Source of the DNA: Candidatus Ectomicrobium neotermitis
Lineage (GTDB): Bacteria > Elusimicrobiota > Endomicrobiia > Endomicrobiales > Endomicrobiaceae
Assembly (NCBI GenBank): GCA_031283745.1
Contig: JAITBH010000119.1
Coordinates: 1 to 33,647, forward strand
DNA: 33,647 bases
Direction: 5' to 3'
In this document: positions 22,574 to 33,647 of the stretch, in pieces
Layout of the letters: each line of letters starts with the position of its first letter
Numbering within the stretch: the stretch's first letter is position 1
The notes under the pieces: model-generated
The model's database searches: none
What the model saw: only the letters and a program-made list of their open reading frames with translations
What the model was told of the DNA's origin: nothing
Position numbers and translations under genes: made by a program

Positions 22574-24382
22574 ATGATTGAAAATTTAAGGTTGCACATC
22601 GACAATATGACTTGCGTCAATTGCCAAAACAAAATCGAAAGAAAGCTCAAAGAAACGCAAGGCATAAAAAAGGCAGGGGTGAGTTTTAATTTAGCCTCTT
22701 GCGACATAGATTATGATTCATCGATTATCTCCGCTGATACTCTCAAAAAGCTTATAACCGAGCTTGGATATAGCGTCAGCGGAGTTGACGAAAGCGGGAA
22801 AGGGCAGGGTTCGGGCATAAAAACTGCCCTCAAAGCGGTAGTTGGTTTTGTGCTTTTGTTTGTTTTTCTTGGGCACTTGAGCAAAATGCCCATTTTTAAT
22901 TTCTTTCCCACTGCCCAAGCGGAAATGCGTATCGGGGCATTATTTTTGATCGGCTTAATCACCTCTTTTCATTGCGTTTTTATGTGCGGCGGAATTAACC
23001 TCTCCCAATGCCTCCCTCTCAAAAATCAAAGTAGCGCACCTAAAAAGCTTTCCACCCTAAAACCCTCTCTCCTCTACAATCTCGGGAGGGTATTTTCTTA
23101 TACCCTTGTTGGCGGAGTGCTTGGCGGGATAGGTTCTTTTGTCGCTTTTGATGAGCAAATTAAGGGGATTATTCAGATAGCAGCAGGCATTTTTATGATT
23201 GCGATGGCGCTAAATATGATGGGTGCTTTCGTTTTCCTAAGAAAGTTTATTCCCAAAGCCCCAAGTTTTGTTCTTAAAAAACTTAATAGCTCAAAGCTCC
23301 CTAAAACCCCTCTGATTGTCGGCATATTAAACGGGCTGATGCCTTGCGGCCCCTTGCAGGCAATGCAGCTTTATGCTTTTTCTACGGGCAGTGTGTTTTT
23401 TGGCGCCTTATCGATGTTTGTTTTTAGTGCGGGAACAGTGCCGCTGATGTTTATTTTCGGCACAGCCGCCTCTTTTTTGAGCAAAAAGTGGACAGACAAA
23501 GTCATGAAAATCGGCGCCGTTATAATAGCTGCATTAGGTTTGTCGATGATCTCTTATGGAATAAACACTGCGGGGCTTAGAAACTTTATGGCATCCGCCC
23601 CCTCTTTTTCACAGTCTAAGTATTCAAAAAGCGAGATTGAGGGCGGTGTTCAGGTAGTCAGATCAGAGCTTTTGCCGGGCAAATATCCATCGATAGCTGT
23701 TGAGGAAGGTGTTCCCGTCAGGTGGATAATTGAGGCAGCACCAGAAAATATTAATGGCTGCAACTATAAAATGTCTATCAAAGAATACGGCATCAAACAC
23801 ACTTGGAAACCGGGGACAAATGTCATCGAGTTTACCCCCCAAAAAGCGGGCAGGTTTTTTTACAGCTGCTGGATGGGCATGATAAGCGGAGAAATTTCTG
23901 TGTTTTCTAAAGAGGAGTTTGGCGGGCTTGAGGCTGCTGCCCTAACTGACGTTTCGGATCTATCGCCCGAGCCGGCATATTTTCTAATTCCTTACGGGGA
24001 CAGCGACATCAAAATAGCTCAAAAGAAAAACGATATTCAGTCCGCCGAAATTGAAATTACAGATGAGGGGATAAGCCCTGCTGTCATCATCGTTGAAAAA
24101 GGCATCGAGCTTAACTTGATCATCAACAATAAGTCGTCTTCAGAGGCAAACAAAAATCTGCTGTTTAATTTATACCGCACCAAGCTCGACCTCAAGCGGG
24201 GCAAAAATGAGGTTAAGGTTTTTCCGATGGAGAGTTTTGACTTTTCAAATGCAAACAATTCGGCTTATGGATATATAAAAGCCGTTGAGGACATAAAGTT
24301 TTTTGACATTGAAGATGTTAAAAAAGAGGTTTCGTCGCATGAGACCCTGATTTATCCGATAGGGTTTTATAGTGTAAAGTGA
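22574..24382 (+). CDS. HMA-TauE/SafE-cupredoxin fusion membrane protein
   Basis: The 602-residue protein begins with a heavy-metal-associated domain (CVNC, C14/C17). A multi-span membrane region of the TauE/SafE (UreH/DsbD_2-like) type follows, with motifs FHCVFMCGG and NGLMPCGPLQAMQLYAFSTG. About 250 residues of predicted extracytoplasmic beta-rich sequence close the protein. The first segment there (GVQVVRSELLPGKYPSIAVEEGV...NINGCNYKM...FFYSCWMGMISGEISVF) has Cys and Met residues placed as in cupredoxin-like copper domains. The second, similar-looking segment (about 475-590) contains no Cys. The copZ and copA neighbours point to copper handling. Export, import or redox relay cannot be decided. 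GAAGGAAAAG precedes the ATG. Confidence 0.8.
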   Translation: MIENLRLHIDNMTCVNCQNKIERKLKETQGIKKAGVSFNLASCDIDYDSSIISADTLKKLITELGYSVSGVDESGKGQGSGIKTALKAVVGFVLLFVFLGHLSKMPIFNFFPTAQAEMRIGALFLIGLITSFHCVFMCGGINLSQCLPLKNQSSAPKKLSTLKPSLLYNLGRVFSYTLVGGVLGGIGSFVAFDEQIKGIIQIAAGIFMIAMALNMMGAFVFLRKFIPKAPSFVLKKLNSSKLPKTPLIVGILNGLMPCGPLQAMQLYAFSTGSVFFGALSMFVFSAGTVPLMFIFGTAASFLSKKWTDKVMKIGAVIIAALGLSMISYGINTAGLRNFMASAPSFSQSKYSKSEIEGGVQVVRSELLPGKYPSIAVEEGVPVRWIIEAAPENINGCNYKMSIKEYGIKHTWKPGTNVIEFTPQKAGRFFYSCWMGMISGEISVFSKEEFGGLEAAALTDVSDLSPEPAYFLIPYGDSDIKIAQKKNDIQSAEIEITDEGISPAVIIVEKGIELNLIINNKSSSEANKNLLFNLYRTKLDLKRGKNEVKVFPMESFDFSNANNSAYGYIKAVEDIKFFDIEDVKKEVSSHETLIYPIGFYSVK

Positions 24383-24424
24383 GATTAAATTTTAGAAACA
24401 ACAGATAAAAAAGGAGGCAGTAAA

Positions 24425-24637
24425 ATGGAAAAGAAAGTATTTGCAGTTGATGGTATGTCTTGCCAGCATTGTGTTGATGCCATAACAAAAGCAGTCAAGA
24501 GTTTAGACGGAGTTAAAAGTGTAGAGGTGAGCTTGAAAGCTAAAAAAGCTGATGTTGAGTTTGACCCATCAAAAACCTCCCCGTCAGCAATAATAACCGC
24601 TATCGAGGATCAAGGTTTTGACGCTAAGTCGGCTTAA
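24425..24637 (+). CDS. copZ: CopZ-like copper chaperone
   Basis: The 70-residue protein is a single HMA domain with the copper-binding motif MSCQHC near residue 10 and the fold's conserved ends (GVKSVEVSLKAKKADVEFDP, AIEDQGFDAK). CopZ proteins carry Cu(I) in the cytoplasm and deliver it to CopA or a regulator. AAAGGAGG precedes the ATG. It lies between the membrane fusion protein and the DUF2318 gene, whose ribosome site overlaps the copZ stop, so the four genes look like one unit. Confidence 0.9.
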   Translation: MEKKVFAVDGMSCQHCVDAITKAVKSLDGVKSVEVSLKAKKADVEFDPSKTSPSAIITAIEDQGFDAKSA

Positions 24638-24650
24638 AAGGAGGCAGCAA

Positions 24651-25079
24651 GTGTCTAAGGTTTTTGCTTTTTTGATTTTTAGCCTTTTCTTAGTTTCGTC
24701 GGCATTTGCAGCACAAGGGGACATCATTATTTCCGCAAGTGATATTTCCCCTACAGCAAAGTTTTATTCATCAGATATTGACGGAATTTCCGTCGAGGTC
24801 TTAGCCGTCAAAGCTTCCGATGGCTCCATAAGAACAGCCTTCAATGCTTGCCAAGTGTGTTATGGCTCAGGTGCAGGATATTACAGGCAGTCGGGCGCTG
24901 TTTTGATTTGCCAAAACTGCGGAAACCGTTTTAGGACAGACCAGATCGAGAAGTTTAAGGGAGGGTGCAATCCGATACCGATCACGGCAAAGGATAAACT
25001 TTCTAAAGATGGACAGATTATTATCTCAAGAGAGTTTTTGAGCCAGTCAAAAAAATACTTCTCTTATAGACGCAGATAA
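24651..25079 (+). CDS. Secreted DUF2318 (FtrD-like C-terminal domain) protein
   Basis: I choose the GTG at 24651, 6-7 nt after AAAAGGAGG, instead of the upstream TTG at 24618. This gives 142 residues beginning [20 protein letters not shown], a signal peptide. The mature part holds five cysteines, C67, C70, C87, C90 and C106, in the DUF2318 pattern [12 protein letters not shown]...[10 protein letters not shown]...GGCNPIPI. The family is described as the Fe-S/metal domain of FtrD-like membrane proteins; here it stands alone without membrane spans other than the signal. A periplasmic or surface metal-binding role beside copper transport is inferred. Confidence 0.8.
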
Positions 25080-25107
25080 GCCGCCCAATGGGCATAAAGG
25101 AAACAAA

Positions 25108-27360
25108 ATGACAAACCAGATATTAACAGTAGGAGGTATGACCTGTGCAGCTTGCTCTCAAAGGATAGAACGTGTTGTAAAAAAGCAGGCAGGCATAAAA
25201 CAGGCAGCCGTAAATTTGGCAAGTGAGAAACTTCTTGTGGAGTTTGACGAGCAGGTTATTTCTTTAGACGCAATAAAGAGCGCCGTGATAAAAATTGGAT
25301 ACACGATTATTGAAAAGTCTGAGGATTCTTTGGCTGATGAGAGGATAAGGAAACAAAAAGAAATTAAGACCCTTTGGACAAAATTTATTGTTACGGCAAT
25401 TTTTGCAATCCCGCTTTTATACATAGCTATGGTTCCGATGTTGATGTTAGATTGGCTCCACCTGCCTTTTCCTTCCTTCATTTCTCCGATGGAACACCCG
25501 CTTGCTTATGCAATAGCCGAGCTGCTTTTTGTCATACCAATAGTTGGTGTGGGCTATAAATTTTACACGGTAGGCTATAAGCTTTTGATAGCAAGGAGTC
25601 CGAATATGGATTCGCTCATCGCTTTAGGCACTTCCGCTGCTGTCCTTTATAGCGTCTATAACACTATAAACATCGCAATGGGGGATATTGAGGCGGTAGA
25701 TTCTCTTTATTTTGAAAGTGCGGGGGTTATCATTTGTTTGATTTTGCTTGGCAAGTCTCTGGAAGCACTTTCAAAGGGGAGAATGAACGATGCGATAAGA
25801 AAGCTCATGGGGCTTGCCCCAAAAACTGCAATCGTTTTTAGAGATTCCCAAGAAATAGAGGTCTCGATAAAAGATGTTTTAGTAGACGATATTGTTGTGG
25901 TTAAACCGGGCATGAAAATTCCTGTAGACGGAGAAATTGTCGAAGGTCAAACAGCCATAGACGAGTCGATGTTGACGGGAGAAAGTTTGCCTGTAGACAA
26001 AAAAGCGGGGGACAAGGTTTTTGGAGGGTCGATAAATGCCAATGGATACATAAAGTTCCGTGCTCAAAAAATTGGCTCAGCCACTGTGCTTGCCCAAATA
26101 ATCAAGCTTGTTGAGGAAGCACAAGGCTCAAAAGCCCCGATAGCTAAACTTGCCGACATCATTTCGGGCTATTTTGTCCCCATCGTTTGCTGTATCGCTT
26201 TGTTTTCAGGAGCGGCTTGGTATATCGCTGACAGGGATCTCAGCTTTTCGCTGACAATTTTTATATCCATTTTGGTTATTGCTTGCCCTTGTGCTTTGGG
26301 CTTAGCGACCCCTACCGCCATTATGGCTGCCTCGGGCAGAGGTGCTCAGCTGGGTATCTTGATAAAGGGCGGGGAAGCACTTGAGATGGCTCATAAAATC
26401 AATATCGCTGTATTCGATAAAACAGGAACCATCACTGAGGGCAAACCATCTTTAACCGATATAATTTGCGTCCCTCAAATATCCCGTCAATACCTTTTGC
26501 AAATGGCTGCATCAGCTGAAAAAGTTTCCCAACACCCTCTTGGCGAGGCAATCGTGGCAGCTGCCGCAAAAGAAAATATCGAGCTTTTTAATGTTGAAAG
26601 TTTTGAGTCGCTAAATGGGCTTGGCATAAAAGTTCGGATAAACTCAACGGATGTTTTTGTGGGCAATCGTAAGTTTATGGACGAGCTAAATGTGGACTTA
26701 AAGGATATGCAGGAGGCAGTAGATAGGTTGGCTACAGAAGGGAAAACTCCAATGTTTGCATCATTTAATAAAGAGCTTGCTGGGATAATTGCTGTTGCCG
26801 ACACAATAAAAAAGAGTGCCGCTGAGGCAGTAAAAAAGCTCAGCAAAATGGGAATTGAATCCGTGATGCTTACGGGAGACAATAAAAAAACCGCTGCAGC
26901 CATTGCGGCTCAAGCGGGTATCAATAAAGTGTTAGCTGAGATAATGCCTCAGGACAAATCTAATGAGATAAAAAAGTTGCAAAAAGAGGGCTACAAAACC
27001 GCTATGGTTGGAGACGGAATAAATGACGCGCCCGCACTTGCTCAAGCAGACATCGGAATTGCCATCGGCACGGGGACAGACATTGCTATGGAAACTGCAG
27101 ATATTGTGCTGATGAAAGGCGACCTGCGGGATGTTCCGATCGCAATAGAGCTAAGCAAAAAGATGATTCGCAATATAAAGCAAAACTTGTGCTGGGCTTT
27201 TGGATACAACATCGTCGGAATTCCTATTGCAGCAGGAGTTTTATACTTGTTTGGAGGGCCTTTGCTAAACCCTATCTTTGCCGCCGCTGCCATGAGTTTA
27301 AGCTCTGTGTCAGTTTTAACGAATGCTTTGAGGTTAAAGAGATTTAAGGGCAGCAAATGA
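25108..27360 (+). CDS. copA: Cu(I)-exporting P1B-type ATPase
   Basis: CopA pumps Cu(I) from the cytoplasm. The 750-residue protein has one N-terminal HMA domain (MTCAAC, C13/C16), the actuator TGES motif ([12 protein letters not shown]) and the transmembrane metal site CPC ([14 protein letters not shown]). Downstream are the phosphorylation site DKTGTITEG, the nucleotide-binding HPLGEA, and the hinge [12 protein letters not shown]. It ends with YN and MSLSS motifs that mark the Cu(I) subclass. GGAAAC is the upstream ribosome site. Its stop overlaps the next gene by 4 nt. Usually such pumps have two or one HMA; one is common. Confidence 0.96.
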
Positions 27361-31953: not shown

Positions 31954-31992
31954 GCCGCCGTGATAAATGCAAAACTAAAAAAGGGAGGAAGA

Positions 31993-32397
31993 ATGAAAAA
32001 AAATTTATTAGTCTTGTTCTTGTTAGCATTTGCAGTGTCAGGGGTGTCAGAGGTTTTTGCGGCAGGTTTAGTTGAGGCAGCTACTGTAACGGAGCAGTTT
32101 CATTTGAGGGCAGATAAAACTCCGCTTGTCCGCAAAGCCATAGTTAAGGCGTGCGAAAAAAGAGGGTGGGTTGTGTCTAAAGAGACAGACAATGAAATTG
32201 AGGCAATTTTGCAAAAACGTAGCTATTCTTTGACTGTGAGCATAAGCTATAGCAATGACGGATATTCGATAGCTTATAAAGACAGCACGGGCTTAAAGTA
32301 TGACCCTGAGAAAAATCGGATCCATTCAAGCTATGCAAGATGGCTAAAAAACCTCAACATAGACATAAATGCCGACATAAACCTTCTCAACGGTTAG
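31993..32397 (+). CDS. Secreted small protein, uncharacterised family
   Basis: From the ATG at 31993 (after GGGAGGAAG) the product is 134 residues with a clear signal peptide (MKKNLLVLFLLAFAVSGVS, likely cleaved after EVFA). The mature part resembles a common proteobacterial periplasmic family: PLVRKAIVKACEKRGWVVS (a helix), EIEAILQKRSYSLTVSISYSNDGYSIAYKDSTGL (strands) and IHSSYARWLKNLNIDINADI (a helix). No catalytic residue is apparent. The frame is open upstream to 31960, but that would mask the signal peptide. It lies 16 nt before the ApeP-like gene and may belong with it or with ydbC. Confidence 0.72.
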   Translation: MKKNLLVLFLLAFAVSGVSEVFAAGLVEAATVTEQFHLRADKTPLVRKAIVKACEKRGWVVSKETDNEIEAILQKRSYSLTVSISYSNDGYSIAYKDSTGLKYDPEKNRIHSSYARWLKNLNIDINADINLLNG

Positions 32398-32413
32398 CTT
32401 TGGATACATTTTG

Positions 32414-32845
32414 ATGAAAAATTGTAAGGATTTTGATCTAAGTAAAAATATGATTCACCGTTCTCCGATGTTGATGGTCGACAAGATTTTAGAGGAGAGC
32501 GAGTTAAACGGAAAAACTTTTTTTAAGGTTACAGATGACTGTATTTTTCTTACTTTTGACGGTGTTCTACAAAGAGCGGCTATGATAGAAATAGCCGCTC
32601 AATCTTTTGCCGCAATTGACATCTTCCACAAGAGGCAAAAAAATCTTGAACCTAAAAAAGGTTTTGTTGTTAGCGTCCGAGACTTTAAGTTTTTTTGTGA
32701 TGCAAAGATTGATGACGAGATTGTCTGCGAGCTTAAAAAAGTTGATGAGTTGGGTCTTATACACATTGCAGTTGCAAGGCTGATAGACAATAAAAACGGC
32801 AGGTTGTTTGCCGACGGAGAATTTAGAATTTATGAACTTCCTTAA
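32414..32845 (+). CDS. apeP: ApeP/FabZ-like 3-hydroxyacyl-ACP dehydratase (hotdog fold)
   Basis: The 143-residue protein (from ATG 32414; a TTG at 32411 adds one Met) fits the ApeP-like branch of the thioesterase/dehydratase hotdog superfamily: IHRSPMLMVDKILE with H15, FDGVLQRAAMIEIAAQSFAA with E59, and a beta-rich C-terminal half ending FADGEFRIYEL. Such enzymes dehydrate 3-hydroxyacyl-ACP intermediates during aryl polyene or related polyene/fatty-acid assembly. The ribosome site is weak. It overlaps the LolA-like gene by 14 nt, and that gene overlaps an MMPL exporter gene, reproducing the neighbourhood of aryl polyene clusters. A generic FabZ paralogue cannot be excluded. Confidence 0.72.
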   Translation: MKNCKDFDLSKNMIHRSPMLMVDKILEESELNGKTFFKVTDDCIFLTFDGVLQRAAMIEIAAQSFAAIDIFHKRQKNLEPKKGFVVSVRDFKFFCDAKIDDEIVCELKKVDELGLIHIAVARLIDNKNGRLFADGEFRIYELP

Positions 32846-33431
32846 AAAAACCCTTCTCTTTATTTCCTTCATATTTATCCCGCCTCTTTGTTTTTCCCAG
32901 GACTACAATCCAAGCAAGATAGCTGAGGTTGAAACGATAGAAAGCACTTTTAGGCAAGAGATCTCGTATACATTTTCCACTGCTCCTTTTGTCTGCGGCG
33001 GGAAAATGGTTTTTCAAAAACCCGACAAAATAAGATGGGAGTATTTGTATCCCGACACTGCTAAAAGCGGGTTCCTCTTTGAAAAAGACAAATTCATTTA
33101 TTGGAAAACTAACGCTAAAGGCGAAAAAGCAATTGCGGATTTATCAAAGAGAAGGTTTGCAAAAAACATATTTTTTGCCATCAGCAGTTTCCTTAATATG
33201 GATATGCCCGCTTTAGAAACAATTTATGACATCGAGCTTCTAAACAATATGATGGTTTTTTATTCAAAACAAAAAGCTGGGAGGATAGAGAGGATTGAGG
33301 TTTATTTCAAGAAAGATATTCCTGCTGTTAGCCAAATAATTATTTTTCACAAAAACGGAGACAAAACAACCATTTCTTTTGATGATGTAAAAATTAACGA
33401 GGTCTTGCCGGAAAATGCTTTCAATATTTAA
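32832..33431 (+). CDS. LolA-like outer-membrane lipoprotein/lipid carrier
   Basis: The ATG at 32832, inside the end of the previous gene, gives 199 residues with a signal peptide (MNFLKKTLLFISFIFIPPLC). The mature protein has a LolA fold-type pattern: VETIESTFRQEISYTFSTAPF, a GKMVFQKPDKIRWEYLYP strand pair (typical of LolA), FEKDKFIYW, and a C-terminal GDKTTISFDDVKINEVLPENAF. Canonical LolA moves lipoproteins to the outer membrane. Stand-alone LolA-like carriers encoded beside MMPL exporters in polyene clusters are proposed to carry the product or a lipid across the periplasm. It overlaps the exporter start by 17 nt. An upstream extended start at 32808 would hide the signal and is rejected. 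Confidence 0.78.
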   Translation: MNFLKKTLLFISFIFIPPLCFSQDYNPSKIAEVETIESTFRQEISYTFSTAPFVCGGKMVFQKPDKIRWEYLYPDTAKSGFLFEKDKFIYWKTNAKGEKAIADLSKRRFAKNIFFAISSFLNMDMPALETIYDIELLNNMMVFYSKQKAGRIERIEVYFKKDIPAVSQIIIFHKNGDKTTISFDDVKINEVLPENAFNI

Positions 33432-33647
33432 CTTTCTATCAAAACATAAAAAGCTCTATCTGGGTTTTTTGTGTTTTGTTTTTTTTTGTTTGGTGTGGTC
33501 TTTTGCACAAATCAAATACAGCTCTGATGTTTCTCAAATACTGCCCTCCGTCTTAGATAGGGAAATGAAGTTGTTTCAAAACTCGCCTTTATCAAACAAA
33601 CTATTTGTCGTAGTTGACGCTAAATCCTACCAAGATGCCCAAATATC
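33415..33647 (+). CDS. MMPL/RND-family exporter, N-terminal part (runs off the right edge)
   Basis: From ATG 33415, 77 residues fit in the window: MLSIFNFLSKHKKLYLGFLC, then FVFFCLVWSF as the first membrane span, then IKYSSDVSQILPSVLDREMKLFQNSPLSNKLFVVVDA. The pattern of a basic N-terminus, one span, ILP and a LFVVVDA-type strand at the start of the first periplasmic porter domain is typical of MMPL/RND exporters. MMPL exporters of aryl polyene clusters move the lipid-like pigment toward the outer leaflet or outer membrane. Overlaps the LolA-like gene by 17 nt. The family is clear, but the remaining ~700 residues are outside the window. Confidence 0.75.
   Translation, partial: MLSIFNFLSKHKKLYLGFLCFVFFCLVWSFAQIKYSSDVSQILPSVLDREMKLFQNSPLSNKLFVVVDAKSYQDAQI

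Follow-up and report, generated by a model that had tools for sequence, protein, structure and literature searches.

A putative aryl polyene lipid pathway split over three loci in an Endomicrobiaceae draft genome

The 33,647 nt stretch of DNA analysed here (the window) is the whole of one contig (C134) of an 84% complete draft Candidatus Ectomicrobium neotermitis genome of 1.25 Mb in 159 contigs. Judged from sequence, the genes at its right end very probably serve the export and finishing steps of a pathway for aryl polyene (APE) lipids. An earlier note had read this end as part of an APE-like cluster, which proved essentially right: of the 18 E. coli CFT073 Ape proteins, 16 were matched and the parts of the pathway were found in the same genome. 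The pathway would be of a known kind, with its split into three loci and a fused ApeC-ApeH protein as apparent variant traits. A literature search found no paper on APE clusters in Endomicrobiaceae, though such an absence is no proof.

Four plus-strand genes occupy the right end of the window, the last of which runs off the contig (Table 1). Three of these, overlapping and co-directional, had been described before as dehydratase, LolA-like carrier and MMPL exporter; their open-reading frames, overlaps (14 nt between the hotdog and LolA genes, 17 nt between LolA and the third frame) and family matches were all confirmed, and the ApeP-LolA-MMPL order, which had been described as seen in such clusters, is kept in several relatives. 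The left edge had been placed at 32411, a TTG one codon upstream of the ATG start of the hotdog gene (32414), and lies in fact one gene earlier, an ApeA homologue having been missed. This homologue, whose longest open-reading frame starts from a GTG at 31960, shares 35% identity over 89 aa with E. coli ApeA (BLASTP, 2e-15), and its family profile scored 97.7 bits to E. coli ApeA and below 0 bits to the remaining Ape proteins. The group has the same upstream neighbours here as in the sole other genome of the genus (G001): a glutamine synthetase (assigned from its sequence), an ANTAR response regulator, an RNA methyltransferase and a PC4-like gene. A promoter scan returned a site count no higher than in shuffled sequences, whilst a terminator scan showed a hairpin with a 10-pair stem within the apeP coding sequence (window 32574-32600). 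Elsewhere in the window, a row of proteins with heavy-metal (CxxC) domains spans 22574-27360, in which 25108-27360 looks like a copper-type P-type ATPase.

Table 1. Features at the right end of the window, in window coordinates.
Feature	Position	Strand	Basis
apeA homologue, small protein with signal-like N-terminus	31993..32397	+	BLASTP and family profile
apeP-like dehydratase subunit, hotdog fold	32414..32845	+	Family profile, residues and model
apeL, LolA-like periplasmic lipid carrier	32832..33431	+	PF03548, NF053544, profile match to E. coli ApeL
apeM, MMPL/RND exporter, first 77 codons	33415..33647	+	Frame continues on contig C33
Exact 119-nt match to the end of contig C33	33529..33647	no strand	Locus continues through the overlap

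Catalysis in FabZ depends on a histidine (in the motif GHFP) and a glutamate. The hotdog protein in the window is without the GHFP histidine and keeps the helix glutamate (IEIAAQ), E. coli ApeP shows the same loss of the histidine and retention of the glutamate, and the histidine is present both in E. coli ApeI and in an ApeI-like partner encoded on contig C33. With the glutamate in ApeP and the histidine in ApeI, the dehydratase active site is probably formed jointly and shared by an ApeI:ApeP pair. The single hotdog sequence matched the ApeP-like family PF22817 weakly (14.5 bits, cutoff 27), reached 19 bits against FabZ models with cutoffs of 113 and 155, and was uninformative in a PDB search. 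The family profile was more discriminating: its best PDB match was 6QSR chain B (ApeP, 3.1e-6; best FabZ, 2.5e-3), ApeP was its sole match among the 18 E. coli Ape proteins (21.5 bits), and HHalign gave 94% to E. coli ApeP. The structure predicted for the window protein (pLDDT 89.8) had its highest TM-score among the matches listed to 6QSR_B (0.86, rmsd 1.9), but in the same Foldseek comparison the E-values of FabZ entries were slightly ahead of ApeP, and only TM-score and rmsd favoured the latter. The dehydratase thus groups with ApeP by profile, and not with the generic FabZ proteins or thioesterases that the earlier note had weighed, with the structure comparison consistent and less decisive.

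Both the LolA-like carrier and the MMPL/RND exporter of an APE cluster are present. By itself, the LolA-like protein matched PF03548 (2.5e-13) and NF053544 (LolA2_flexi; 3e-18, 65.9 bits, below its cutoff of 125), and its family profile found E. coli ApeL (37 bits). The 77 aa MMPL fragment in the window gave no MMPL match of its own in a Pfam search. The end of the window shares exactly 119 nt with C33, a 119-mer that occurs once in each contig; this length would suit adjacent contigs from an assembly with k=119. Joining the two yields an uninterrupted frame for a 761 aa MMPL protein, the C33 part of which (L066) lies on the minus strand and matches PF03176 (8.5e-13). The joined protein shares 59% identity over 756 aa with its same-genus counterpart, and the MMPL profile matched E. 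coli ApeM at 124.8 bits.

After apeM, C33 continues to joined coordinate 38843 with the ApeI-like dehydratase, apeK (a 4HBT thioesterase), a GT2 gene assigned as the N-terminal half of apeJ, an HtrB-type acyltransferase assigned as its C-terminal half, and an apeE-like ACP, followed by a DUF3089 gene. Contig C139 carries a methyltransferase (OMT), a ketoreductase (KR), a CrtD-like FAD enzyme, a ketosynthase (KS1), ACP1 and PlsC, then a hairpin with a T-run, and contig C153 carries a second ketosynthase (KS2) and a fused half-KS/AMP-ligase gene (chain-length factor, CLF, plus acyl-ligase), which adjoin genes resembling aroB and aroQ (names read from sequence). The genome therefore holds two KS plus the CLF. 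The expectation that KS, ACP and KR genes would follow within ~15 kb held in part: an ACP, ApeI, the thioesterase, GT2 and acyltransferase are directly downstream, whilst KS, KR and the second ACP are on two other contigs. As the window and C153 loci are flanked on both sides by unrelated genes, the window genome has at least three separate loci and not a single cluster. One cluster is the usual arrangement of APE genes, and is not required for function. Tetranucleotide correlations of the window with C33, C139 and C153 are 0.975-0.982 (0.84-0.85 to related genomes), all parts lie in one genome bin, and all core enzymes have intact frames and catalytic residues. Since the genes are spread over three loci, the case for their cooperation rests on homology and on relatives in which they are contiguous, namely the sister genome E. 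proavitum (G011) and rumen Ruminimicrobiellum, each with the APE set in one cluster. The FAD enzyme (CrtD/CrtI-like, L067:5125-6519) belongs consistently to the core operon, and isomerase or desaturase of the polyene are its candidate roles.

When family profiles derived from relatives were compared with the 18-protein Ape set of E. coli CFT073, the expected partner came first for each protein matched. In addition to the scores given above, these were ApeB 381, ApeD 50, ApeE 44, ApeF 54, ApeI 46, ApeK 72, ApeO 196, ApeQ 228 and ApeR 286 bits; ApeJ was matched in two pieces (GT2, 140 bits; acyltransferase, 46 bits) and the fused protein profile matched both ApeH (51.7 bits) and ApeC (12.8 bits). 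ApeG and ApeN had no counterpart among the family profiles, whilst the FAD enzyme and, in a number of relatives, a DUF4823 protein go beyond the E. coli set. The C-terminal lipoprotein-like tail of the MMPL protein of relatives was considered as ApeN, a weak link which we regard as unsupported. Solved structures gave the same assignments: the profile of the ApeI-like partner had ApeI as its best PDB match (6QSR_A, 3.9e-11; the entry title of 6QSR names an ApeI:P complex), KS1 had ApeR (7F27), KS2 matched ApeO (6QSP/7F28) among many KS entries, and the half-KS matched ApeC (7F28_A), the identities of 6QSP, 7F27 and 7F28 being taken from PMC8358021. The active-site cysteine is present in KS1 and KS2 and absent in the half-KS, as in ApeC. 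The genome thus encodes an ApeO:ApeC-type KS-CLF pair with a Cys-less, single-domain CLF (on C153, not in the window), an ApeI:ApeP dehydratase pair divided between C33 and the window, a KR (ApeQ), an ApeR-type KS, two dedicated ACPs and, by the AMP-binding domain match of the fused protein, an aryl acid-activating enzyme (ApeH), whose substrate assignment is putative. The fusion of Cys-less half-KS and AMP-ligase (L068:10471-12231 and homologues) is seen in all Endomicrobiaceae members aligned.

A tyrosine/histidine ammonia-lyase-type gene, which the earlier note had listed among those to look for, was not found: aromatic ammonia-lyase (PF00221) was absent in 13 genomes in a search whose control gave signal, and the starter is therefore probably a benzoate-type acid. 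The E. coli APE is likewise predicted to start from 4-hydroxybenzoate without an ammonia-lyase (PMC8253772). The window genome, at 84% completeness, yielded no ammonia-lyase, UbiC or Rv2949c-type chorismate lyase as starter-making enzyme. The Rv2949c-type lyase (PF01947) occurs in five cluster-bearing genomes (G025, at L106:1348-1956, G029, G014, G002 and G015), is confined to cluster-bearing genomes among those searched, and is absent from the window genome and E. proavitum; in those five genomes it might supply the aryl starter. UbiC itself gave weak matches only, which were traced to this family.

Applied here, the stepwise APE route proposed for E. coli (PMC8253772) would begin with the fused ApeC-ApeH protein, whose AMP-ligase half would load a benzoate-type acid onto an ACP, after which ApeR and the pair of ApeO and the ApeC domain would extend the starter with malonyl units. 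Each cycle would include reduction by ApeQ and dehydration by the ApeI:ApeP heterodimer, giving a conjugated polyene, and the ApeB-like enzyme may methylate the ring. Transfer of the chain to a membrane lipid would fall to ApeK, the PlsC-type enzyme and the GT2/acyltransferase pair, after which ApeM would flip the product out and ApeL, with ApeA, would carry it to the outer membrane. Joint action of these parts is what homology, gene order and the pattern of kept and lost catalytic residues point to, and the nature of the product, its location and any protective role are predicted on the same grounds.

The earlier note had left the choice between an aryl polyene and a flexirubin-type pigment, in which a dialkylresorcinol, and not a phospholipid-like anchor, carries the polyene acid as an ester. 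The LolA and KR proteins do resemble those of flexirubin clusters of Bacteroidota, as LolA matches NF053544 (LolA2) and the best NCBIfam model for KR is NF053542 (FlxB), yet neither passes its curated cutoff (65.9 of 125 bits and 291.8 of 340 bits, respectively), and homologues of ApeA, ApeB, ApeD, ApeJ and ApeK match the E. coli APE set. The aryl polyene half of that proposal is the better fit, and we consider a flexirubin-type pathway improbable.

Two further explanations dispense with an active polyene pathway altogether. Ordinary fatty-acid and lipoprotein genes (a FabZ, a LolA and a hopanoid-type RND exporter) might be neighbours by chance, as the weak FabZ matches of the single hotdog sequence, the failure of Foldseek E-values to separate ApeP from FabZ and a weak PDB match of the MMPL protein to HpnN would allow, but the hotdog protein is far below both FabZ cutoffs, is missing the active-site histidine and is favoured as ApeP by profile and TM-score. 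Moreover, many genomes share the gene order and have KS, ACP and KR genes next to it, and these neighbouring genes largely refute a chance association, which we hold to be extremely unlikely. Alternatively, the genus of the window may keep a decayed remnant, the export half only, with the polyene no longer made. The same-genus genome G001 shows just the locus from apeA to ACP and neither KS1 nor the FAD enzyme, but it is 59% complete and the window genome has every core enzyme with frames and catalytic residues intact, so the chance of this being a remnant is very small. An APE lipid pathway remains our preferred reading.

A full-length relative of the cluster GT2 is present in 19 genomes of the family and in many of family f13. 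None of the genomes listed for genus g8 has one; their size (0.6-1.4 Mb) would fit flagellate endosymbionts. A scan of named genomes returned 20 Elusimicrobiota loci and four termite-gut Verrucomicrobiales loci. The latter (L092-L095, all in MAGs) have a GT2 54-57% identical to the cluster GT2, by transfer or misbinning, and form one group among Elusimicrobiota rows in the GT2 tree. Besides the family, other Elusimicrobiota loci (L099 and L102) and one Verrucomicrobiales locus (L093) have the fused ApeC-ApeH, and in L103 and L104, both from uncultured Elusimicrobium sp., ApeC and ApeH are separate, adjacent genes. Searches of G003, a further genome of the family, gave two ApeR-like KS genes (C54:34238-35449 and C52:80656-81882, 55-56% identity) and neither an MMPL nor a CrtD-like partner. 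Aryl polyenes are thought to be antioxidant outer-membrane lipids, and are mostly discussed for bacteria that meet oxygen. Endomicrobiaceae inhabit termite and ruminant guts. All members are reported to be strict anaerobes (Mies et al., PMC11257099), in line with the earlier note's supposition of an anaerobic host, and the question of an antioxidant in an anaerobe therefore stands. We tentatively entertain, as a possible but doubtful extension, a dispersed, anaerobe-adapted APE variant, with a fusion of loading enzyme and CLF, a CrtD-like FAD enzyme acting on the polyene, a starter acid possibly derived from lignin breakdown in the gut, and loss of the trait in Endomicrobia that turn intracellular within flagellates. 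As E. proavitum (chromosome CP009498, PMC4505116) is in culture, the product and its role in gut-oxygen protection or at the cell surface are directly testable.

Compared with the ape cluster of E. coli CFT073 (c1186-c1204; PMC8253772), the set described here has the same two ACPs, two dehydratases and three KS-type proteins, together with LolA and MMPL export, a thioesterase, a methyltransferase and acyltransferases. It differs in occupying three loci instead of one, in the fusion of ApeC to ApeH, in the division of ApeJ into two genes, in having no match found for ApeG or ApeN and in the added CrtD-like FAD enzyme. The APE enzymes of Xenorhabdus doucetiae and Acinetobacter baumannii (6QSP, 6QSR, 7F27, 7F28) share with it the ApeI:ApeP pair, ApeR and the ApeO:ApeC KS-CLF pair, in which the CLF is single-domain and Cys-less, whereas in Endomicrobiaceae this CLF makes up the N-terminal half of a protein that also contains the acyl-ligase.
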